Source: Phocaeicola barnesiae DSM 18169 = JCM 13652 (GTDB taxonomy: Bacteria > Bacteroidota > Bacteroidia > Bacteroidales > Bacteroidaceae). Taken from it: a stretch of 64,000 bases of DNA. A program made the position numbers and the translations under genes. Below the pieces are notes generated by a model. That model was not told where the DNA came from. It saw only the letters and a program-made list of their open reading frames with translations, and searched no databases. Position 1 is the stretch's first letter; every line of letters starts with the position of its first letter. This document shows positions 26,516 to 40,080 of the stretch, in pieces. The DNA is taken from NCBI RefSeq assembly GCF_000374585.1, contig NZ_KB894644.1:1-64000 (forward strand), read 5' to 3'.

Positions 26516-27013
26516 TTATACTTTATAAAGGTTGATAAATTCGATGTTGAGTTGCTCTGCCTGCCTTGCCGTATAGTACGTTCCACCTTTCAGCTCTCCG
26601 TCCCAGTAGGCTATAATCTTGTCAGACCGTTTAATCATGTAGTCATTTCTGCGGAAGAAACAACCTTTGAAGTAATTGTCAGAAATGAGTACCACTTCAT
26701 CAGCCTTTTTCAGAAAATCTCTGTAAATGGCCTTGTCTGCTTCATCGTATCTTTCCGCCTGTTTCCTAAATGAGATAACTGCAATTAACTTGATGTCCTT
26801 GAAGTACCGTTTGACCGTCAAAACCGCTTCTGCTGCCATGAGGGCGCCCCCGTTTGCCATGCCATTGTAAAAGACCTTATAGCCTTGTGCGGAAAGGAGG
26901 GTTATATGAGCAATAATGTCAAGTCTGATTTGGCGAATGTCGCTTGTCTTGATGATGCGTTCTTTTCTGTGTCCCGAAAAGGATGCTGCGAGTTGTTTTT
27001 CTGTCTTGGTCAT
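26516..27013 (-). CDS. SLOG/DUF1273 family protein
   Basis: A 165-residue Rossmann-like protein. AASFSGHRKERI at the start, YKVFYNGMANGGALMAAEAV in the middle and a later Asp-rich strand fit the SLOG/DUF1273 group, which binds nucleotides or nucleotide-derived ligands. Such proteins are linked to nucleotide signalling but also occur as plain accessory genes on CTns. The start at 27013 (MTKTEKQ) avoids overlap with the upstream gene. Confidence 0.7.
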   Translation of the reverse strand: MTKTEKQLAASFSGHRKERIIKTSDIRQIRLDIIAHITLLSAQGYKVFYNGMANGGALMAAEAVLTVKRYFKDIKLIAVISFRKQAERYDEADKAIYRDFLKKADEVVLISDNYFKGCFFRRNDYMIKRSDKIIAYWDGELKGGTYYTARQAEQLNIEFINLYKV

Positions 27014-27026
27014 ATCTTCAAAGTTT

Positions 27027-27224
27027 TTAGAGTGTGAACAGCCAAAGAAGGAACATAAGGAATACAATGAGGGTTAAAATGGCGCAAATGATGCTTAACG
27101 CTATCTGAACCACTCCCAGTACGATTTCACCTGTAAAACCTACAAGAAGTCCGCCTATACTTAATGCTATATTCAGAATTACCCTGAATACCGCCTTTAC
27201 CATGTTTGCCAATTTTGTTTTCAT
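27027..27224 (-). CDS. Small membrane protein
   Basis: A 65-residue protein starting MKTKLANMVKAVFRVILN, with two hydrophobic stretches covering about residues 10-65 (ALSIGGLLVGFTGEIVLGVV; LSIICAILTLIVFLMFLLWL). It is the first gene I accept in the leftward ICE block. Function is unknown; it could affect entry exclusion or simply be an accessory protein. Confidence 0.6.
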   Translation of the reverse strand: MKTKLANMVKAVFRVILNIALSIGGLLVGFTGEIVLGVVQIALSIICAILTLIVFLMFLLWLFTL

Positions 27225-27943: not shown

Positions 27944-29563
27944 ATGAAAATCAATTATAGAACTCTTCTAAATAAAAATATAGCTGATATTCTTATAGTA
28001 ACAGCAACAGACATAGAAACTGAAATGCTTCACAAAGCTTTAGAACCTGTATGTACAGAAGGATTGCTTGAAATAGAAGATGAAGGACATTGTTATTTTG
28101 CAGGTATTCTTGGAGGTTATAATATAATTCATTGTCAGTGTGAGAAAATGGGAACTCAAGAAAAAGGTTCTTCTATACTTACAACGACTACAGCTCTTAA
28201 GACTTGGCCTTGTATAAAAGCTGTGATAATGTTAGGTATTGCTTTTGGAATGTATGAAAATGAAGGAGAAACTCCTCAACATTTTTCAGATGTACTTGTT
28301 GCTTGCAAAATTTTTCCTTATGAAAACCAACGTTTCAATCATGACGGAAGTGTAACTTACCGTGGGAAGGAGCATTGTGCTTCAATTCCTTTTATTGATG
28401 CTTTTACAGTTATAGCCCGAAATTGGCAATGGGAAAATGTTAAAGGAGAATCTACTCGGATAGAAATTTGTCCATTGCTCTCAGGAGAAAAACTAGTAGA
28501 TGATATTACCAAACGTAATGAGCTAAAGTCCTATTTTAAAGAATATAGAGGTGGAGAAATGGAAGGTATTGGTCTTGCTGCTGTTTGTGAAGAACATGGA
28601 AAACCATGGATTCTACTAAAAGCTATTTGTGATTTTGCAGATGGAAATAAAGGATTAGATAAGAAGGAAAAACAAGCCGATGCGGCTAAAGCTGCTGTCC
28701 ATGCTTGTACTCAAGCACTTCAGACTATTAATGTAAGTTCTCTTATAGATAATAAAACAAATTATTGGTATCGTCCTTCGGAACTTGATCTTAGTAAAGT
28801 CTTTTTTGTGCATTATGATACTGATTGTTCACCATATTATCTTGAGCGTAACGTAGATGTTGAGCTACAACCTTTTATAATGACAAAAAGTTGTTGGGTC
28901 TATGGAAATTCCGGAATGGGTAAATCTGAATTGCTAACAAGAACACTTATTCATAATAATGTAGAATATATTTATATAGATTTGTCTTTATGTTCTAAGA
29001 ATAATGTATTGGATACTTTTGATACAATTTATGAATCCATATGTGCAAAGTTAAATAAGGAAACAGAAGAAATATCTTGTTTTGAAGATTATGTAAAAGA
29101 AATTTGTAAAATCTTAAATTCGGAAATTGTAACAAAACATATGTATTTGTTGATCGATGAGATTCCGTTTGAGCACAAAAGTATGATTTTTAGAGAATTT
29201 GTTGATAAGTTTTGTTCTATGATGAATTATTGCAGTAGAAACATAAAAGGTAAAACAATTCTTTTCATGGTATCATCTATAGCATCTCCATTAGAAGCAA
29301 TAGATTCTGATGATTACAGAAATAAAATAGCTCAATATATAAAATTTCTAGAATTGAAAGATTGGACAATGGAAGAATGCACAAAATTGATAGATTTATT
29401 GACCAAAGTGGTATATTTAGACTGGAGCGACTTTAAAATAGAGGATTTCATAGAAAAATTTAAGTATTCACCGCGTCTAATAAAAAATGCATTAAAAGAA
29501 TCTTGTTCATTGGGATATAGAAAAATTGATGATATTGTTATTAATCGGATAATAGTTGGATAA
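27944..29563 (+). CDS. Purine nucleoside phosphorylase domain fused to a STAND-like NTPase
   Basis: A 539-residue two-domain protein. Residues about 10-262 form a PNP/MTA-SAH nucleosidase-like domain: LGIAFGMY near 97-104, the substrate-binding GEMEG with E205/E207, and ICDFAD with candidate catalytic D230. Residues about 310-539 form an NTPase with Walker A GNSGMGKS (321-328) and Walker B YLLIDEIP (401-408). PNP domains fused to STAND NTPases act as effectors in bacterial immunity, where they would attack nucleosides or nucleotides after the NTPase senses infection. It lies 2 nt before an AAA-TPR gene, in AT-rich cargo of the ICE. The domains are clear; the immune role is inferred. Confidence 0.82.
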   Translation: MKINYRTLLNKNIADILIVTATDIETEMLHKALEPVCTEGLLEIEDEGHCYFAGILGGYNIIHCQCEKMGTQEKGSSILTTTTALKTWPCIKAVIMLGIAFGMYENEGETPQHFSDVLVACKIFPYENQRFNHDGSVTYRGKEHCASIPFIDAFTVIARNWQWENVKGESTRIEICPLLSGEKLVDDITKRNELKSYFKEYRGGEMEGIGLAAVCEEHGKPWILLKAICDFADGNKGLDKKEKQADAAKAAVHACTQALQTINVSSLIDNKTNYWYRPSELDLSKVFFVHYDTDCSPYYLERNVDVELQPFIMTKSCWVYGNSGMGKSELLTRTLIHNNVEYIYIDLSLCSKNNVLDTFDTIYESICAKLNKETEEISCFEDYVKEICKILNSEIVTKHMYLLIDEIPFEHKSMIFREFVDKFCSMMNYCSRNIKGKTILFMVSSIASPLEAIDSDDYRNKIAQYIKFLELKDWTMEECTKLIDLLTKVVYLDWSDFKIEDFIEKFKYSPRLIKNALKESCSLGYRKIDDIVINRIIVG

Positions 29564-29565
29564 AT

Positions 29566-32148
29566 ATGACAAGAACAATAAATTCATCAGCACAAGTTCC
29601 TCGTGAAATGTATGTTGAGCGAGCCGCTGATATGCAAATAAAACGCATAATAGCAGAAATGGCACGTCCTGGTTATGTTCTGGTTGCAAGACAAATGGGA
29701 AAAACGAATTTGTTATTACATACAAAGGATTTGTTGCAAGACAATAAAAATATTTTTGTATATATAGATTTTTCTATAATGTCTAATTATACAGAAAGAG
29801 AATGTTTAAACACGCTTATAGATACAGCTATAGAAGTTAATTATGAATTATTCAATGAAGCAGAGGCTCAAATAGAGCAGATTCGTGAGAAATCTACCTA
29901 CAATGCTTTGCGAATGTTTAATCGTGAATTACGTATTTTGTTAAAATATGTAGATAAAATAGTTTTCATTCTTGATGAAATAGACGCTTTACTTCGCACT
30001 GAATATTCTGATAGAATATTTTCTCTTATACGTGGACATTATTATGCTAATGCTAATTTCCCTGAATTAAAAAGAGCGACGTATATTATGTCTGGAGTAG
30101 TAGAGCCTAAGGATATTATAAAAGATCCCAATATTTCACCATTTAATATTGGTGAAAAGATTTACATGACGGATTTTACATATGAGGAATTTCTTTGTTT
30201 AACTAAAAAATCTGACTATCTATGTCATATTGATAGGAATATTATAGAAAGATTATATTATTGGACTAAAGGACAACCTCGTATGTCTTGGGATTTATGT
30301 GCCTCTGCAGAGCAACAACGAGTAACAAGCATAGAAGAAATAGACGATTTGGTAAAGAAGATGTATTTAACTACTTATGATCGAGCTCCTATAGATTCTA
30401 TCCGGGAAAAAGTTAAATTAGATTCAGAATTATGTGATGCCTTAATACAATTATCAATTGACAAGGGTGATTCTCTATCTGATGATGTAAAAAGTAAATT
30501 ATATCTAGCTGGTATTATCGATTATAAACAAACTATTCCTGAATTTAAAAATCCAATATTAGCCAAAAGTCTTACCTATGATTGGTTGTTAGCTATACAT
30601 GACCAAGAATTAAATTATCTTTCTGTTGCAGATAAAAGTATACATTTAGAGCGTGATTATAAAAAAGCAATTGCCCATCTTAAAAAATTTTTTGATTCTA
30701 ATCCAACAGATTTGGATGATATTGATAAAGCAAACTTCTTAATGGGAGAAGCTTATTTTAGAACTTATCGCACAGATGACTCTTTGAAATATCTTAATGA
30801 AATTATAAAAAGAGGAACAAAAACGAAATTCCATCATAGGAGTATGTTACTAAGGGGATATACTTTGGCTTCTGATGAGAATTTTAAAGAAGCTGAAAAA
30901 TGTTTTCGTGATCTATTGCAAGATAATACAATCAGAAACACAGAGGTATATTTTAAAGCGATACTAGGTTTAGTAGATGTTTTAGTTTCACAAGATGATA
31001 CAGCTCTGTGGAAAGAAGCGGAAGTATTGCTTAATGAACAAATTGAAAAGTCACAAATGGAATTGCTAAAGCAACATTTATTGGCAACTGTATTTTATTA
31101 TTTAGCCTGTATAGAAGAGAAAAGAAAGAATAAAGATTTATGCGTCAGCTATATAGAAAGTGCGTTACAGTCATCACAACTTAATGAACGTCCTCAATTA
31201 CTGTATATGAAATTGAGAAATGTTAAAAAAGAAACAAGGGATAGTACTGCTTATGAGTTATATAATAGCCTAGAAACAATCAAAGCTCGCCCTGAGCCAG
31301 AAGATTTTGATAATACGTTAGGATTTAATTTATTTTATGCGAGTCAAATTTTAGCATTGCTGATGTTAGAATATCCTCAATATGATATAACTAAATATTT
31401 GCGTTTTTTTCTATATGAGTCAAAGGAAAATGCTGTTATTTATATATATGAATTATTAGTTAAAAATGAAGATGAAAAAGCTAGTGATTTCTTTAAATTA
31501 ATAGTGAAACTAGTACATACCCAAGAATGGTTATTTGATCTTTCTCAACGTTGTAAAATTGCATTACATCAATTAAGAGAATATAATAATCCAGATGAAT
31601 GTTTGGATATTATTTTAAATTTAAATAACAGTCAGTTGTTGCAAGACTTTATTTGCGAGTTATTTTCAACATCAATATATTACTTTATAAGAAAAAGGGC
31701 CATCAGGGAGGCGGATCAGATAATAAAAAAATACCGATCTGTTGAGCGATATTTTGTAAGTAAACAATATGATAAGGATATTTTAATAGATTATTATGAG
31801 TGTTTTGTTTTATTCATTCGTAAGGATTATGCTGTTTTTTCAAAAAAGGGAGCTTTGTTACTTGAAAAAATGATTTCTTACAATAACCAAAAAGAGAATT
31901 TTAAAGAAGAACAACTCTCTATCAATGAGGTAAAAAGTATAACTGAAAATTTGAAGAAATGGCTACAAGCAACAGAGGAAACACTTCGAAAGATGGGGAT
32001 TAAAGAAAAGAACACGACTTTAAGCAGAAATTCTAAAATTATAGTTCGTTATATTTCAAACAACAAAGAAATAGAAGGTAAATACAAACAGTTAGAAGCA
32101 GATCTGAATATGGGATTATGTATTGTTGTAAAGATAACCAAACTATAG
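29566..32148 (+). CDS. AAA-like ATPase with C-terminal TPR-type repeats
   Basis: An 860-residue protein. The N-terminal ATPase (AAA_35-like, PREMYVERAADMQIKR) has an atypical Walker A ARQMGKTN (41-48), Walker B IVFILDEID (132-140) and a GQPRM motif at 236-240 as in STAND ATPases. From about residue 350 to the end it is helical, with TPR-like repeats (LMGEAYFRTYRTDDSLKYLN; FKEAEKCFRDLLQ). It is 2 nt after the PNP-STAND gene and must be co-transcribed. The pair may form one sensor-effector complex, with this protein as the repeat-bearing sensor. An IS256 relic begins about 40 nt downstream. Confidence 0.78.
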   Translation: MTRTINSSAQVPREMYVERAADMQIKRIIAEMARPGYVLVARQMGKTNLLLHTKDLLQDNKNIFVYIDFSIMSNYTERECLNTLIDTAIEVNYELFNEAEAQIEQIREKSTYNALRMFNRELRILLKYVDKIVFILDEIDALLRTEYSDRIFSLIRGHYYANANFPELKRATYIMSGVVEPKDIIKDPNISPFNIGEKIYMTDFTYEEFLCLTKKSDYLCHIDRNIIERLYYWTKGQPRMSWDLCASAEQQRVTSIEEIDDLVKKMYLTTYDRAPIDSIREKVKLDSELCDALIQLSIDKGDSLSDDVKSKLYLAGIIDYKQTIPEFKNPILAKSLTYDWLLAIHDQELNYLSVADKSIHLERDYKKAIAHLKKFFDSNPTDLDDIDKANFLMGEAYFRTYRTDDSLKYLNEIIKRGTKTKFHHRSMLLRGYTLASDENFKEAEKCFRDLLQDNTIRNTEVYFKAILGLVDVLVSQDDTALWKEAEVLLNEQIEKSQMELLKQHLLATVFYYLACIEEKRKNKDLCVSYIESALQSSQLNERPQLLYMKLRNVKKETRDSTAYELYNSLETIKARPEPEDFDNTLGFNLFYASQILALLMLEYPQYDITKYLRFFLYESKENAVIYIYELLVKNEDEKASDFFKLIVKLVHTQEWLFDLSQRCKIALHQLREYNNPDECLDIILNLNNSQLLQDFICELFSTSIYYFIRKRAIREADQIIKKYRSVERYFVSKQYDKDILIDYYECFVLFIRKDYAVFSKKGALLLEKMISYNNQKENFKEEQLSINEVKSITENLKKWLQATEETLRKMGIKEKNTTLSRNSKIIVRYISNNKEIEGKYKQLEADLNMGLCIVVKITKL

Positions 32149-32190
32149 ATAGAATTATATGTCAGCAATAACTAAAGTCGGTCGATTTTA

Positions 32191-33556
32191 GGCACTATAA
32201 AAGATTTTGTGTAAATGGAAAATACGGGATTCAAGTTTGAGTCTCGTATTTTTTATTTTATAGATTTGCAAAATGAAGAAGATTATGAAAGAAAAGAATC
32301 AAGTAGTGCCCGATGAGGTGTTAAGCAAGGAGTTCCTTAGCCAGTTCAAGACAGAAGCTGATGTGAGCAAGTTTCTGAAACAGTTGCATGCCCTGGTGCT
32401 GGAGAAGATGCTTGAAGGCGAAATGGATGTCCATTTGGGTTATGAGAAGAATTCTGTGGCAGGAAACAACACCGGCAATTCACGTAACGGTAACTATCCG
32501 AAGAAAATCCAAACCGAACATGGGGAATCTGTCATTTCCATTCCGCGTGACCGTAACGGCCAGTTTGAACCGATAGCAGTGCCCAAACATGAAAGCCGTG
32601 GACTTTCAATAGAAAAGCTTGTTATCTCCCTATATGCCAAAGGAATGAGCGTTTCCGATATAGAGGAGGAGATGCGTGAAATTTATGAAATAGAGCTCTC
32701 GACATCAGCCATCTCCATCATTACAAACAAGGTAAATCAGGCAGCCTAGGAGTGGCAGAACCGCCCTTTAGATCCTGTTTATCTGATAGTCTGGTGGACG
32801 GTATCATCTTCAAGGTACGGATAACGGCAAAATCATAAACAAGACCGTTTATCTTTTCGTCAACCTGAAACAAAACGGTCTGAAGGAAGTCCTTGACATG
32901 TGGGTAGGCAAATCGGAAAGTTCTTCTTTCTGGATGGGTATACTGACTGATTTAAAGGTGCGTGGAGTACAGGATATACTGATTACCTGTACTGATAACC
33001 TGAATGGATTTACGGATACTATCCGCACCGTATTCCCTCAGTCATCCACTCAAATCTGTGTGGTGTATCAGATCAGAAACTCCAGTAAATATGTCGTTTA
33101 TAAGGACAAGAAAGAGTTTACAGCGGATATGAAGAATATCTATAATGCACCCAACAAAGAAGTAGCAGCCACAGAACTTGACAATCTGGAAAAGAAATGG
33201 GGAGGAAATATCCTTATGCCATACTTTCATGGAGAAACAACTGGGATGATTTGACTGTTTTCTTCCAGTTCCCGCTGGAAATCAGAAAAATAATCTATAC
33301 CACAAATCTCATTGAAAACCTGAACGGGAAAATCAGAAAGTACACGAAATCAAAGCTTTCATTCCCTTCGGATGATGCCGTCAAAAAGACCGTCTATCTT
33401 TCACTTATGGAGATTGAAAAGAAATGGACTATGCCTATTTCAAACTGGGGCTTGATTATGAACCAGTTTATGCTTATTTTTGAAAACAGAATCCAGATAT
33501 AAGAAGAACTTACAACTGAATCCTGTTTCCATTTACATAAAATTTCGGACAGTGTC
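32191..33556 (+). mobile_element. Degenerate IS256-family insertion sequence
   Basis: Imperfect 28-bp inverted repeats at 32191-32218 and 33529-33556 (about 20 of 28 positions match, ending in GTAAATGG) bound a broken IS256-type transposase gene. No clear 8-9 bp target duplication is seen. The copy is dead and lies between the AAA-TPR gene and the helicase partner gene. Confidence 0.75.
32273..33502 (+). pseudogene. IS256-family transposase, inactivated
   Basis: The reading frame resembles IS256 mutator-type transposases ([47 protein letters not shown]). It is broken by an in-frame stop at 32747-32749 (after KVNQAA), a one-base loss near 32793 in the region of the first catalytic Asp, and another loss near 33205. 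The second Asp (TDNLNG) and the Glu (IENLNG) are still readable in separate frames. Multiple lesions indicate long decay rather than sequencing error. Confidence 0.8.
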
Positions 33557-33557
33557 T

Positions 33558-34337
33558 TTAATATCGCCCTCTTGATCTTCTTAAAAATTTTAAATTATTA
33601 TTATACGAACTTTTAGTACCACGATTAATTCTATTCTTTTTTAAAGAAATCATTCTGCAAAAATCTTTGCTAAGAAAAATGTTTCTTAATTCGTTTTCGT
33701 CAATAGATTTTGGCAATCCTAACTTATAAGAGTGGTCTTTAGTGAAATTAATATCAAAATGATACTGTGGATGTACGATGGATTTTTCCCCTTTAGCAGC
33801 CTGTTTATCGTAGTCATATCTGATATATGCAGGTTCCTCAAATAATAAATATTCGAACAAATGCTTTCCTTCTTCACTTGGGATATTCTCTAAATCATCA
33901 AATACTATATCATTGTATAATCCTGTCTTCTCTTGTGTTACTTGATTTAATATAGCAATGGCATCAGATATGTGCTTGGCATTAATTTCAATTTTTTTTG
34001 TATTTCCACTATCACTGTCGTCCTTTTTTATCAATATGAAGGCATCTATCTTATTTAGCTTTGCTTTTATTTTAAGGCCGAATCCAAAACTTATTATTTT
34101 ATTGTTACTTTCAACAAATATCCGATGCAATTCATAATCTTCTACACACATATACGGAAATTTGCACATTTCCTGCTCATGACATCCATTCCATTGTGTT
34201 ATTAGAAGTTCTAAGGCTGTAAGTTTCAGTTTAATGAAATCATAGACATTAGTGACTTCCGAAAACATATTCTCACGTCCTTTCGCATCTGTTAAGTTAA
34301 TATAGAAATCATGCTTTGACATTTGTTTATTCTCCAT
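33558..34337 (-). CDS. Unrecognised partner of the SF1 helicase
   Basis: A 259-residue protein in AT-rich DNA. Charged and aromatic residues alternate (FYINLTDAKGRENMFSEVTN; YHFDINFTKDHSYKLGLPKS), with a basic C-terminus (RRSRGRY). No catalytic motif is recognised. Its start overlaps the helicase stop by 11 nt, so the two form one operon. The stop codon lies two bases from the IS256 end, so the C-terminus may have been altered by that insertion. It could be a nuclease or adaptor subunit of the helicase module; this is inference. Confidence 0.6.
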   Translation of the reverse strand: MENKQMSKHDFYINLTDAKGRENMFSEVTNVYDFIKLKLTALELLITQWNGCHEQEMCKFPYMCVEDYELHRIFVESNNKIISFGFGLKIKAKLNKIDAFILIKKDDSDSGNTKKIEINAKHISDAIAILNQVTQEKTGLYNDIVFDDLENIPSEEGKHLFEYLLFEEPAYIRYDYDKQAAKGEKSIVHPQYHFDINFTKDHSYKLGLPKSIDENELRNIFLSKDFCRMISLKKNRINRGTKSSYNNNLKFLRRSRGRY

Positions 34338-36315
34338 ATATTAGTATGAAAGAATCAAGTTTCTTTTGTAATTCATCTTCATCAAGATCCTGCCAGCCCA
34401 TTCCAAGTGCAGTTTCTACCATTTTGTCAATCAGTTTTCCTTCTACACCCTTATTTTTCAGATAATCACGTATTTCATCTGCCAATGGTCGTCTATTTTT
34501 CAATTTCTTAAACCGAGTTTCTACCTGTTTTTGTTGTTCAATTGATAGTTTGTTAAACTTTAAAGCTTTTAATTCATTTATTACATCATAGTTATGTCTC
34601 AATTTTGTTGCATTTTCAGCTTGCTCTTCTGATATGATAAGGTAAGATTTTATGAAAGAACGAGTAAGCATTGTGTACAATGAATTTCTATAAGATTCAC
34701 GTGGAACTAGTCCTTTTGTGATGCATATAACAAAGGGGAATTCCAATCCTTTCACATTATTTCTATTGCTTAATAGCAACCTGTCTTTAATGACTGTTTT
34801 TGTTTCATAAGCCTTATTGACTTCCCATCCCAGACGGACACTTATTTCATGTTCTATTTGATTTGCCCAGTTATAAATATAGTTATCATCATCCAGTAGA
34901 ATAATACACAAATCATTGATTGATACATCTGAATTTTCACTTTGTATATCATTTATAACTTCCAATGTTGCGGAAGCAACATCTTCCTCCTTAAAGGTTC
35001 TGATTTCAATACTTTTGTAATCATCTTCCACATCAGAAAACCTTCTGACAGGTTCGCGTGTTAATGATATTTTACCATTATCTTCTGTATATATATATCC
35101 GCAAGCTTCCCAATCCTCCTTTCTTAGCCACCTTAGCTTTCGTTTTTCAAATAATCCTAAGCCTAAAGCATGTGCGAACATAAGAGTTCTTGGATCTGTT
35201 CGATAACATTTTGTAAGGAAATAATCTGCAGAATAATCTGAAATGACATGTTCTTCAAAAATACTTTGGAAAATATCGCCAGCTATGTATAACTTCTGAG
35301 ACGTAACTTCTTCGCATAATTTAAAGAAACTTTCAGGAAAATCCTGACATTCATCAACTAATATATAGTCTAATGCATATTTTTTATCTGCTATTCCACG
35401 GATTTGGGATAACGCATTTTGGCATACATCATCAAATGATGTATATTTCCCGTAACTATGGTATACAATACCATAAAAATCACAAATGTATCTATATAAA
35501 CCTGAATTTTCATCCCCGTATCTACCCCAAGCATTAGTACACCATAACCGTTCGTTCCAAGCAATCTGTTCTGATACCCTCATCAAATTAAAGAACGTTG
35601 GAATTTTCTTTGATAAAGAATCTGCTAATATCTTATTGTGGCATGTTACAAAAATCTTAGGTTTGCTATAGCTCGTATATAATTCTTTTAGTTTGTGAAG
35701 CAGTAACTCAGTCTTTCCTGTACCTGAAAGTCCCTGAATTTTCACCCTCTTGCTTTCGCCTTTATTTTGATAAATAAATCGAGTTTGGTCTGCATCAAAC
35801 AATTGTATTTTCTGTTTCACTTTGTCAAGCAAGGTTATAGGCACTTCTGCCTTAACTCTTTCTATGTCATTGATGCTTCCTGTGCATAAAGAAATTATTA
35901 TTGTTGCCCATTTATTATATTTAGGGTCTGCAATTCTAAGTCTGCGGAACAAGTCAGAGACATCAGATAAATCCCGTTTAGTCATAGAGAAATCTACGAC
36001 ATGGCTCCAGATAGTTTTAAAACGTCCTAATACTTTCTCATATTCATACGTTTTATACAAATGTGACACAGACATCTCTATATCATATTTATAATCATCA
36101 AATATATGGGTATCTGCTTCTAAATTAACTAGAGCTATTTTGTATCCAGGAGATAAAATCATAACACTTTGATAAGTAGTTTCTTCATTATCTCCTTTAG
36201 GTGTACGCAACAAATATATAGAGTGTTTGTTTTCACTAGCGAACCGTGATAACACATTCTCAATATCTCCCAAGTTAAGACTATCTGAATAAAAATATGA
36301 TGTTTCCATATTCAA
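34327..36315 (-). CDS. Superfamily 1 (UvrD/RecB-like) helicase
   Basis: A 662-residue SF1 helicase. Walker A is GLSGTGKTELL, Walker B LVDECQDF, motif III-like AGDIFQSIF, and motif VI-like YTMLTRSF. Two RecA-like lobes are separated by an insertion. It belongs with UvrD/Rep/RecB-type or AAA_19 proteins that unwind DNA or remodel nucleoprotein. Such helicases paired with an unknown subunit are frequent in anti-phage loci. It is leftward, AT-rich, and followed at once by its 259-residue partner. The helicase call is firm; the defence role is inferred. Confidence 0.82.
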   Translation of the reverse strand: MNMETSYFYSDSLNLGDIENVLSRFASENKHSIYLLRTPKGDNEETTYQSVMILSPGYKIALVNLEADTHIFDDYKYDIEMSVSHLYKTYEYEKVLGRFKTIWSHVVDFSMTKRDLSDVSDLFRRLRIADPKYNKWATIIISLCTGSINDIERVKAEVPITLLDKVKQKIQLFDADQTRFIYQNKGESKRVKIQGLSGTGKTELLLHKLKELYTSYSKPKIFVTCHNKILADSLSKKIPTFFNLMRVSEQIAWNERLWCTNAWGRYGDENSGLYRYICDFYGIVYHSYGKYTSFDDVCQNALSQIRGIADKKYALDYILVDECQDFPESFFKLCEEVTSQKLYIAGDIFQSIFEEHVISDYSADYFLTKCYRTDPRTLMFAHALGLGLFEKRKLRWLRKEDWEACGYIYTEDNGKISLTREPVRRFSDVEDDYKSIEIRTFKEEDVASATLEVINDIQSENSDVSINDLCIILLDDDNYIYNWANQIEHEISVRLGWEVNKAYETKTVIKDRLLLSNRNNVKGLEFPFVICITKGLVPRESYRNSLYTMLTRSFIKSYLIISEEQAENATKLRHNYDVINELKALKFNKLSIEQQKQVETRFKKLKNRRPLADEIRDYLKNKGVEGKLIDKMVETALGMGWQDLDEDELQKKLDSFILIYGE

Positions 36316-37234: not shown

Positions 37235-37545
37235 TCATTTTTCAGAGAAAGCAGAGGAATAATGTACGACATTGTGTACATTATTCAGGCCATTGGGCTT
37301 CAGTTCGATGACCTGACGATATTCTGGAGATACGTCAAACGGGCACTCTATGTGGTGTTCTATTGTTTTGTAATAGCCGAATCGGGGATAATAGTCTTTG
37401 TGACCAAGCAGGACGGCTGGTTCATATCCAAGGATAGCAGCTCTTTGATGAGCCTCTTTCAGCAGAGTTTCTCCTATGCTTTTCTGTTGGAATTCCGGAA
37501 GTAAGTCAAGGGTGCTATAGCCAAAGAAGTTGTAACTCCATTTTC
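37235..37545 (-). pseudogene. GNAT acetyltransferase remnant, N-terminal part missing
   Basis: About 100 codons encode the C-terminal half of a GNAT N-acetyltransferase (LLPEFQQKSIGETLLKEAHQ; LGHKDYYPRFGYYKTI), including the acetyl-CoA-binding Gln-x-x-x-Ile-Gly region. No matching N-terminal half exists upstream; the DNA runs into the 3' end of the permease gene at 37594. The gene was cut by deletion or by an integration event near the 37-kb boundary. It is not expected to be functional. Confidence 0.7.
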
Positions 37546-37593
37546 GGATACGATTTCTACTTTGGTCAGTAGATGAAAACCTGTAACAGGCTC

Positions 37594-38562
37594 TTACAAT
37601 ACGGCATTGAACAGGTATCCTAAGAAGATAATGAACAAGGTTATCAGACCGAAGAAGATACAGATTAGCCGCCAAGTCATGACTTTTTTCAATAATGTGG
37701 CTTCCGGTAGCGAAAGCCCTACGACTGCCATCATGAAGGAAATGGCCGTTCCTATTGGAATTCCTTTTGCTACAAAGACTTCTATCACCGGAACGATTCC
37801 GGCAGCATTGGCATACATCGGTACAGCAAGAATGACAGAAAGCGGAACAGCGAACCAGTTGTCCGTGGCCATATATTGTTCGAAAAAACCTTCCGGAACG
37901 TAGCCGTGCATCAATGCCCCTATGCCTATTCCGATGAGGATGTATAGTAATACTCCCCGGACAATGTTCCATGCCTCATGGATAATCTTGGGGAGGCGTT
38001 TGATGAAGGGGGTATTTCCGGTTTCCCATTTATCGGATTCGGCGGATGAGTGTTGTTGTATCTGTTGTACCCATCCGCTCAGATAAGGTTCCAGCTTCAT
38101 TTTTCCCAAGACAAATCCACCTGCCATGCCCAGCAGGATACCGCTGATAACGTAGATGGCAGTTATACGGAGTCCGAAGGTTCCGATGAACATAGCCACT
38201 GCGACTTCATTCACCAAAGGTGAAGTAATCAGATAAGCAAAGGTTACGCCCAAGGGAATGCCACCTTTTACAAACCCGATGAACAGAGGGATGGAGGAGC
38301 AGGAACAGAATGGGGTAATAGCCCCAAACAGCGCAGCGAAGAAGTATTGTAATCCATACAGTTTACGCGAAGTCAGATAATTGCGTAAACGCTCTATCGG
38401 AAAATAGGCATTGATGATACCCATTATCAGACTGATAAAGAACAGTAGAACCAGAATCTTTATCGAATCATATAAGAAGAAGTTCACGGCTTCTCCGATA
38501 GGGGTAGTATCCTTCAGGCCGAAGATGTCATACACCAGCCAGTCCGCAAATTTTTGTATCAT
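37594..38562 (-). CDS. arsP: ArsP/DUF318-type permease
   Basis: A 322-residue polytopic inner-membrane protein with about eight hydrophobic helices and the conserved PFCSCSSIPLFIGFV motif of the ArsP/DUF318 permease family. This family exports trivalent organoarsenicals or other soft metals through paired cysteines. It lies leftward as the last gene after arsC and the small thioredoxin, so it likely belongs to the ArsR-controlled set. Substrate (arsenic or copper-like metals) is inferred. It overlaps the GNAT remnant in no frame. Confidence 0.8.
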   Translation of the reverse strand: MIQKFADWLVYDIFGLKDTTPIGEAVNFFLYDSIKILVLLFFISLIMGIINAYFPIERLRNYLTSRKLYGLQYFFAALFGAITPFCSCSSIPLFIGFVKGGIPLGVTFAYLITSPLVNEVAVAMFIGTFGLRITAIYVISGILLGMAGGFVLGKMKLEPYLSGWVQQIQQHSSAESDKWETGNTPFIKRLPKIIHEAWNIVRGVLLYILIGIGIGALMHGYVPEGFFEQYMATDNWFAVPLSVILAVPMYANAAGIVPVIEVFVAKGIPIGTAISFMMAVVGLSLPEATLLKKVMTWRLICIFFGLITLFIIFLGYLFNAVL

Positions 38563-38639
38563 GATCTTGTCTAGTCTTGTTAGTTGTTGGTAGGCATACA
38601 GATAACCGCCAGGAAATCTTATCTGTAAGTTGAGTATTC

Positions 38640-39068
38640 CTATTGTTGCTGTTCCTTTATTTCAGTGAGATAAAATTTCGTGAATTCGTTCCTTATTTCA
38701 TTGCGTACCCTGATAAATTCATTTCTGATGAATCCGGCTGTTCCTTTGGCTTCCGAGGGGTCATCGAATCCGATGTGTAACCGTTTCCAGACGTTGCCTG
38801 TAAAGGTGGGGCAGGTCTCTTGTGCGTTGTTGCATACGGTTATCACATAATCCCATGTTTTATCCAGATAGGTGTTTACATCGGTGGGGGTATGTCTGCT
38901 GATGTCTATGCCAATTTCTGCCATGACTTCAACAGCCAAAGGATTGACGTTGGGAGCCGGATGTGTTCCGGCAGAGAAGACTTGTATATCCTCGTCTAAG
39001 GATTGGAGGAAACCGTGCGCCATCTGGCTGCGGCAACTGTTCCCTGTACATAAAATCAGGATTTTCAT
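38640..39068 (-). CDS. arsC: Arsenate reductase, thioredoxin-coupled (LMW phosphatase fold)
   Basis: A 142-residue ArsC of the low-molecular-weight tyrosine phosphatase type. The P-loop CTGNSCRS places the nucleophile at C7, with redox cysteines C79 and C86. The 72- and 7-residue spacings are those of the S. aureus pI258 type, which reduces arsenate to arsenite using thioredoxin. Its stop is 78 nt before arsP, and a thioredoxin-like gene lies just upstream. Confidence 0.88.
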   Translation of the reverse strand: MKILILCTGNSCRSQMAHGFLQSLDEDIQVFSAGTHPAPNVNPLAVEVMAEIGIDISRHTPTDVNTYLDKTWDYVITVCNNAQETCPTFTGNVWKRLHIGFDDPSEAKGTAGFIRNEFIRVRNEIRNEFTKFYLTEIKEQQQ

Positions 39069-39074
39069 ACGGTT

Positions 39075-39314
39075 TCAGCCTATTGTTTGAAGAAATACTT
39101 CTTTCACTTCCTTAGCGGAAAGTTTGCCTTTTGCCACTACTTTACCGTCGATGACAAGGGTCGGAAGTGTCATTACATTGTATTCCATGATTTTCATCAG
39201 ATCTTCTTCTTTGAGTACTACAGCTTCCAGACCTAATTCTTTGACTACTTGTCCCACTGTTTCATACAAGGCTCTGCAGCCGTCACAGCCTGTTCCTAAT
39301 ACTTTAATTTCCAT
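39075..39314 (-). CDS. Small thioredoxin-fold protein (MTH895/TM0996-like)
   Basis: A 79-residue thioredoxin-fold protein with a CxxC active site at C10-C13 (GCDGCRAL) and the cis-Pro region LPTLVIDGKV. This small family is often found with metalloid permeases and arsenate reductases. It ends 7 nt before arsC, so it may supply electrons to ArsC or hand metal to the permease. A TTCG-N8-CGAA operator lies upstream. Confidence 0.82.
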   Translation of the reverse strand: MEIKVLGTGCDGCRALYETVGQVVKELGLEAVVLKEEDLMKIMEYNVMTLPTLVIDGKVVAKGKLSAKEVKEVFLQTIG

Positions 39315-39342
39315 TGTGGTTGGTTTTTATAGTTAAACGTAT

Positions 39343-39358
39343 TTCGTAAAATAACGAA
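39343..39358 (-). promoter_or_regulatory. Second ArsR-type operator (TTCG-N8-CGAA)
   Basis: An inverted repeat TTCG-N8-CGAA in the 108-nt gap between arsR and the thioredoxin gene, with the same geometry as the operator before arsR. It could give local control of the thioredoxin-arsC-arsP part. Confidence 0.5.
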
Positions 39359-39422
39359 CATTAAGGGTGAAAAATATTAAATGTTTCTTCCATCATCCGG
39401 AACGGTCTTAAAAGCCATTTGA

Positions 39423-39749
39423 TTAACAGCATGTTCCTGACTGGCAGACACATTGGTTGAAGAAATCGTTGAAGAGCCTGCGGGCCAATTCCCAATTTTT
39501 ACGGTTGATGCAATACTTTACTTTGGGAGTTTCTACTTCTCCTTGTATCAGTCCTGCATCTTTCAGCTCTTTCAAATGCTGGGATACAGTGGCCTTGGCA
39601 ATAGGAAGCTCTTCATGAATGTCTCCGAAATAGCAGGTTGTCTGTTTGGCCAGAAAGTGCATAATGGCGATTCGGGCGGGATGGCCCAACGCTTTGGCAA
39701 ATCTGGCCAACTGTTCCTGTGTAACCGTATATTCTTTCTTTTCTTCCAT
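39423..39749 (-). CDS. arsR: ArsR-family metal/metalloid repressor
   Basis: A 108-residue winged-helix ArsR/SmtB repressor. The helix-turn-helix region is [20 protein letters not shown], a Cys pair lies near TTCYF, and the Cys-rich C-terminus (CVCQSGTCC) is suited to binding As(III) or soft metals. The ATG at 39749 ([11 protein letters not shown]) is preferred to one 12 codons upstream, which would begin inside the operator. The operator overlaps the -7 box, so the gene is probably autoregulated. It leads the leftward thioredoxin-arsC-arsP set. Confidence 0.85.
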
Positions 39750-39760
39750 AATCTTGAATA

Positions 39761-39782
39761 TTGTTCGCAAATATACGAACAA
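39761..39782 (-). promoter_or_regulatory. ArsR operator embedding the -7 promoter box
   Basis: Inverted arms TTGTTCG (39761-39767) and CGAACAA (39776-39782) flank an 8-nt centre that reads TATATTTG on the minus strand, a perfect -7 box. A bound repressor would block RNA polymerase directly. It shares TTCG-N8-CGAA geometry with 39343-39358. Confidence 0.6.
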
Positions 39783-40080
39783 CATTGGTGGTTGCCAACT
39801 ATTTCATCAGGAATTTCATTGGATACATGGTTTTACCGGAGTCTTATCAGATCATTGCAGAAAGAAAGGCCAAAGATTCCATGTGAAAGACTTGTTCATC
39901 TCATAAAAATGCAGTACCTCTGAACCCGAAATCCAAGAAGGTGGCCCTCGCTCGGATACTGGAGTATCATGAGGCCTGGTTGTCTTTTCAAAGCCTTGCA
40001 GATGAGTCTGTTGGCTGACAAAGGTCAGAATAGTGCTTTCTTGTGGTTTGTTTTTTACTTGCAGAAAGGAGTATGAATGT

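Follow-up and report, generated by a model that had tools for sequence, protein, structure and literature searches.

An operon of two genes in the gut bacterium Phocaeicola barnesiae DSM 18169 = JCM 13652 probably encodes a split immune receptor of the STAND (NLR-like) type, in which the product of gene 2 senses an invader and switches on a nucleosidase-fold effector, carried by the product of gene 1, by way of homologous ATPase domains. We place the probability of this reading at roughly 0.68. The operon occupies positions 27944..32148 (forward strand) of a 64,000-nucleotide window, which comprises positions 1-64,000 of contig NZ_KB894644.1 (assembly GCF_000374585.1). Gene 1 (27944..29563, +; 539 amino acids) joins a nucleosidase-type domain to ATPase domain 1 (NBD1), and is followed, after a gap of 2 nt (29564..29565, +), by gene 2 (29566..32148, +; 860 amino acids), the likely sensor, a STAND ATPase that carries an array of TPR repeats. 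An initial annotation of the sequence had recognised the operon and proposed that sensing probably falls to the second protein, an ATPase with repeats; the operon is confirmed, and comparison with relatives supports the assignment. Such comparison shows the architecture of the system, the pairing of its genes, the exchange of its effectors, the joint divergence of its ATPases, the conservation of active-site residues and a patchy distribution.

Pairing of the two genes

Homologues of gene 1 and gene 2 numbered 421 and 774, respectively, with the best 120 of each among the matches listed; 46 and 50 of them were aligned to the window proteins. One genome per species was then scanned with the gene 2 alignment alone, yielding 59 loci. 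The scan employed the patterns RQMGKTNL and [NKD]ISPFNIG, which relatives lacking both escape, and because these patterns impose the Walker A motif, the motif is uniform across the scanned loci. In 55 of the 59 loci, a gene bearing NBD1 lies directly upstream of gene 2. The four partnerless loci comprise one at a contig edge (L014) and three encoding distant AAA_35 proteins (L057, L059 and L060).

The co-occurrence implied by the initial annotation was also observed when 395 genomes of the phylum were queried from either gene, as both queries led to one and the same pair of genomes, in which the genes are neighbours. Among 393 genomes of the order, NBD1 (E<1e-30) and a near full-length gene 2 coincide in the same three genomes, and a gene 2 fragment was found at one contig edge. 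Two further genomes of the order sample, G292 and G198, match the nucleosidase part only, and elsewhere each of the domains has weaker matches over part of its length. Since the two other genomes of the order with gene 2 are those of L047 and L049, and the G689 contig is as long as that of L011, these samples add no independent loci; L092 and L093, which are the same loci as L047 and L049, were excluded from trees and counts. The pairing extends to metagenomic proteins: among the matches listed, clusters of gene 1 and gene 2 have equally long longest contigs, for example of 130,394 (P0006, P0125), 24,122 (P0016, P0137), 25,897 (P0025, P0155) and 30,956 bases (P0078, P0189). In Fibrisoma limi (L013:8360-9999), the PNP partner is split between two open reading frames (ORFs), the sensor gene being intact.

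Architecture of the two proteins

Gene 2 begins with ATPase domain 2 (NBD2, AAA_35; residues 1-270, 29566..30375, +), which contains the Walker A motif VARQMGKT (29683..29706, +). This is followed by a helical/winged-helix region (residues 271-345, 30376..30600, +), with matches to STAND/NLR folds extending to residue 338-348, and by a TPR/alpha-solenoid (residues 346-815, 30601..32010, +), which is the fastest-diverging part of the protein. The Walker A motif had been described as odd (ARQMGKTN) in the initial annotation; RQMGK is invariant in 51 of 51 family members, so that the motif is the family norm and was rejected as a hallmark of the window protein. The Walker B residues DE and the GxP motif (G236-x-P238) are likewise invariant. 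With an NBD containing Walker A and B motifs, a GxP motif, a winged helix and C-terminal repeats, gene 2 is, on these features, a STAND (NLR-like) ATPase, with the caveats that ORC chains score similarly and that the first glycine of the P-loop is missing. The second Foldseek hit of the protein is Avs3 (8dgc). The protein terminates in a conserved tail (GRN...KYK...DL..G.C; 32011..32145, +) in common with the C-terminus of Bacteroidota SecA (compared with L096 and L098).

The effector domain of gene 1 adopts a predicted MTAN/PNP fold (residues 14-265, 27983..28738, +), as indicated by Pfam, by fold matches and by a profile match to 3bl6 (E 4.3e-15), and both the PNP_UDP_1 domain and the fold of the PNP/MTAN nucleosidase superfamily were found at the N-terminus. 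Glu25 (28016..28018, +), which aligns to 3bl6 and is invariant in 47/47 aligned sequences and in 25/25 PNP loci, is presumably the last Glu of the MTAN MEEEV motif, i.e., the catalytic Glu12. The Glu205-Met-Glu207 stretch (28556..28564, +) is conserved and aligns with the EME motif of MTAN, which we take to bind ribose, while the conserved and similarly aligned Asp230 (28631..28633, +) presumably represents the Asp of MTAN SDLA, the catalytic Asp197. The equivalents of the catalytic Glu12/Glu174/Asp197, namely E25, E207 and D230, are invariant and MTAN-aligned; the PDB titles of 1z5n and 1z5o name Glu12 and Asp197 mutants. Hence, the nucleosidase domain with E205/E207 and D230 that had been suggested for gene 1 is upheld, and its N-terminus is an MTAN/PNP-fold nucleosidase domain with active-site residues and a predicted activity.

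The fold matches of gene 1 are MTA/SAH nucleosidases, the list being filled by the nucleosidase domain. A misread housekeeping MTA/SAH nucleosidase was considered and rejected, as the NCBIfam equivalog NF004079 scores 42.8 bits against a cut-off of 169; the equivalog TIGR01704 similarly reaches 23.1 bits against a cut-off of 73.8. General effector models of PADLOC match the PNP domain. Two proteins of 616 and 598 amino acids (L062 and L063, from G292 and G198, respectively) match the nucleosidase part at E 2.4e-51 and 1.3e-50 without an NBD1 match, and on these matches carry this effector type in a different fusion.

The remainder of gene 1 constitutes NBD1 (residues 286-539, 28799..29560, +), as delineated by hhalign, alignment and model, with the Walker A motif GNSGMGKS (28904..28927, +). 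The fusion of the nucleosidase to a P-loop NTPase, also put forward in the initial annotation, is borne out by the invariance of G321, G324, G326 and K327 in 47/47 aligned sequences; furthermore, G39, G41 and K42 (alignment positions) are invariant in 29/29 NBD1s covering all effector types. Aligning the family profiles with hhalign matches gene 1 residues 293-539 to gene 2 residues 10-267 (probability 96.5%, E 9.4e-10), and on this profile match NBD1 and NBD2 are homologous. This homology and the retained P-loop of NBD1 imply that the operon specifies a pair of related switches, of which one bears a sensor array and the other an effector. No winged helix is visible in the secondary structure of the NBD1 model, and profile matches of NBD1 in the PDB are weak, the best being a Cdc6 homologue (E 2.9e-6). 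The STAND label first given to gene 1 therefore fits gene 2, which is STAND-type with a winged helix, whereas gene 1 has only a homologous ATPase domain. At one locus (L031:12761-14524, -), a 587-amino acid ORF convergent with the pair is matched by both ATPase profiles (A2 E 4e-16, A1 E 1e-7) and, on these matches, is a third related ATPase.

Exchange of effectors

The exchange of effectors is itself visible in the sequences. Ahead of NBD1, the 55 paired loci encode a nucleosidase (25, plus two with fragments only), an alpha/beta hydrolase (14), an Mrr-type endonuclease (7) or a trypsin-like protease (6), with a fused effector absent from one. Pfam was applied to ten partner proteins, where several Mrr and hydrolase matches fall under the curated cut-off and L034 has no protease match; class profiles built from 14 seeds give the same label for all 52 testable loci and match L034 to trypsin at E 7.8e-18. 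Catalytic signatures are kept throughout (nucleosidase 25/25, hydrolase 14/14, Mrr 7/7 and trypsin 6/6). The arrangement of a PNP effector with a separate ATPase had been considered possibly distinctive. The close pairing stands, and the pair is nameless in the models searched; the arrangement is not PNP-specific, and the domain assignments make it a modular family, in which at least four effectors can be exchanged.

In the locus without a fused effector (L019:8647-9968), a 137-amino acid gene lies just upstream, and the end of its product and the start of the ATPase protein have a common NGNNNN....I..STI motif, presumably reminiscent of the amyloid-type signalling motifs that link NLRs with their effectors.

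An MBL-hydrolase gene lies immediately upstream in 6/6 trypsin loci; none was found in the other 53 loci, a few of which end short upstream. The three MBL proteins of trypsin loci that were tested match PADLOC Avs1a, RTasMBL and LmuA. Tuck and colleagues (PMC12799240) demonstrated that, in Hachiman and AVAST, a nuclease-protease pair of this MBL/trypsin type serves as an antiphage effector activated by proteolysis, and for the trypsin type they name Hachiman, AVAST, Lamassu and DRT as hosts. The split-ATPase family would be a further host, unless figure S2C of PMC12799240 already includes it with its additional loci.

Trees were calculated for NBD1 (55 rows, with L010, at a contig start, omitted) and NBD2 (56 rows). 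The effector label changes six times in each tree, where the least possible number is four and the mean for shuffled labels is about 25. Pairwise identities of NBD1 and NBD2 are strongly correlated (Mantel r 0.84, 55 pairs; 0 of 2000 permutations as high), and by this measure both ATPases diverge together while the effector changes. In each tree, the trypsin locus L034 nests within the Mrr loci (fork support 98/91 and 99/94), which indicates that the effector was swapped there and the ATPase pair retained; other exchanges are likely, and are not forced by supported branches. In both trees, L003, titled Mycoplasmataceae, is sister to the Bacteroidales locus L016, and is probably a mis-binned contig.

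Relative to window gene 1, the nucleosidase averages 52% identity and NBD1 38%; relative to window gene 2, NBD2 and the winged-helix region both average 58%, the two TPR halves 33% and 22%, and the tail 36%. The lowest identity lies in the TPR array; hence, the fastest part of the protein is the putative sensing surface. This is as expected of a recognition domain, and relaxed constraint would give the same picture.

Comparison with known systems

In line with the initial annotation, the window pair is not named as such a system by any model of Pfam, NCBIfam (June 2026) or PADLOC (2023). Searches of open-licence papers gave no recognisable description of it, although the supplementary loci of PMC12799240 could include one. 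We regard the pair as a variant of STAND/NLR-type defence, for which the nearest published idea found is the two-gene nSTAND2 system, a predicted counter-invader operon of two STAND-core proteins, one with variable effectors (Kaur 2021, PMC8195603). The window family likewise has two STAND-type proteins per operon and variable effectors on one of them. In nSTAND2, however, NTP motifs are eroded in the STAND protein that bears the effector, most commonly GT4 or HEPN (PMC8195603), whereas the effector-side ATPase described here keeps its P-loop and its four effector classes are others. A TPR sensor, present here, is not mentioned in the nSTAND2 section of PMC8195603. The family is set apart from nSTAND2 by published description and not by sequence comparison.

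Neither window protein is matched by the PADLOC Avs models, and the Avs2/Avs1b matches of the trypsin variants fall within the protease. Most Avs proteins combine effector, STAND and sensor in a single chain, and Mrr and PNP effectors also belong to the Avs pool. Here, these functions are split over two genes, in the window as in the 55 paired loci. The likeness to AVAST (Avs) resides in the STAND ATPase with its repeat sensor and in the trypsin and MBL effectors common to both (PMC12799240).

Mrr, MBL and trypsin parts of the family match PADLOC LmuA models, in likeness to Lamassu. The LmuA match of the trypsin variant L047 (residues 5-446) raised the possibility that its ATPase part is Lamassu, which was rejected: when the protein was split apart, the protease matches and NBD1 fails, and no LmuA match was obtained with the NBD1 pieces of seven relatives or of the window. 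The Lamassu partner LmuB is an SMC-type ATPase, whereas the partner here is an AAA_35-TPR protein without a match to LmuB or any other PADLOC model. ATP nucleosidase effectors were reportedly described by Rousset in 2023 in CBASS, Avs and Detocs; these similarly have a PNP-superfamily domain fused to an immune protein and differ in partner architecture. Detocs couples its PNP domain via a response regulator, whereas here the PNP domain is fused to an ATPase and no receiver domain was matched. In plant sensor/helper NLR pairs, two NLR-like proteins divide sensing and execution; the executor described here differs in having an enzymatic effector and no sensor repeats of its own, and common descent of the pairing is not claimed.

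Proposed mechanism and alternative explanations

Gene 2 would be held off until its TPR surface binds a component of the invader. Nucleotide exchange may then cause it to oligomerise and to touch gene 1 via the related ATPase domains, as their homology and co-divergence suggest. The effector would thereby be gathered and activated, and the MTAN-like nucleosidase may cut the base off adenine nucleotides, among which (d)ATP is a possible substrate; as a result, the infected cell would stop before the invader multiplies. PNP-type effectors are used in bacterial immunity, and it is by analogy with this use that we propose killing or arrest through adenine-nucleotide cleavage. The effector would be exchangeable, since nothing but the ATPase interface has to be preserved.

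An improbable alternative is that the same nucleosidase killing guards the host of a conjugative element against competing mobile elements and not against phages. Bacteroides-type conjugation genes (MobB, MobC, TraG, TraJ, TraM and TraN) do lie at 2.4-18.6 kb of the window, and named phage records gave zero matches. Against this, a hydrolase version of the pair is located on a 48-kb viral contig (L150:1-17776, IMG/VR), and antiphage systems are known to use the MBL-protease effector pair (PMC12799240). The genes flanking the L150 pair resemble, by eye, integrase and terminase.

Less probable still is an addiction module akin to toxin-antitoxin systems, with the effector as toxin and gene 2 as a restraining ATPase, that keeps the element in its host. 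The tight two-gene operon, the toxin-like effectors and the nearby conjugation genes would fit, but gene 2 possesses a STAND core, a winged helix and some 470 residues of TPR array, a combination typical of activators, and its TPR end diverges fastest, contrary to expectation for a partner-binding antitoxin. Finally, a non-immune nucleosidase under ATPase control that serves metabolism or signalling, for instance by making or removing a signal nucleotide, is very improbable despite the fold of MTA/SAH nucleosidases, given the patchy distribution and the effector swaps with nuclease, protease and hydrolase, which suggest that there is no common metabolic role.

Distribution and neighbouring genes

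The two-gene system, which we favour as a split immune receptor, is rare and patchy in distribution. Within the genus it is present in one of 61 genomes, the source genome alone; gene 2 proteins near-identical to that of the window carry the name Phocaeicola coprocola. The Aeromonas version had zero matches in an E. coli collection (DNA search, 20,395 records).

The neighbours of the pair were compared, two genes per side, at 26 of the 59 loci with control stretches of the same contigs. They include 72 PADLOC families in 104 genes versus 20 in 104 control genes, a comparison of families and not of genes (the first 25 of the 72 being among the matches listed), which suggests that the neighbours are defence-like.

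In the window, the DNA around the pair (28-32 kb) is low in GC (0.29-0.34), and the pair is probably cargo of the conjugative element. Upstream, on the opposite strand, is a SLOG/YspA-family protein (26516-27067, -; Pfam E 2.5e-17). On the 3' side lies an IS256/Mutator-type transposase (32185-33562), apparently split over three ORFs (32273-32749, 32898-33254 and 33197-33502, of which the first was examined with Pfam) and flanked by 37-nt imperfect inverted repeats (76% complementary). This is followed by a helicase-associated protein and a DEAD/DEAH-like helicase (33558-36315, -) of the STM2766/STM2767 families (NCBIfam E 5.5e-29 and 8.9e-235); with a PADLOC 'Helicase' match at E 3.4e-26, they represent a second candidate defence module adjoining the pair. 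Further along is arsenic-type cargo (37235-39785, -), with matches to a permease-like transporter and an arsenate reductase, and an ORF (39423-39785) that by eye resembles an ArsR-type repressor. An Rfam scan of the window gave zero matches, and promoter and terminator scans were near chance (37 versus 31.0 expected, and 5 versus 2.6, respectively).

Implications

The well-known bacterial STAND defences mostly hold sensor, switch and weapon in one chain. The loci described here may represent an unnamed split-NLR family across several bacterial phyla, a proposal to which we give even odds, composed of sensor-only and effector-only STAND-type ATPases that co-evolve, with one twin-ATPase interface accepting nucleosidase, nuclease, protease-nuclease and lipase-like effectors. 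As a natural two-protein split in which the switches stay paired across large distances and the weapon is swapped, the system would make the activation interface directly testable, by asking through which face one NBD activates the other and whether the choice of effector matters. If true, this would provide a bacterial parallel to the paired NLRs of plants and an added host for a mobile nuclease-protease cassette.

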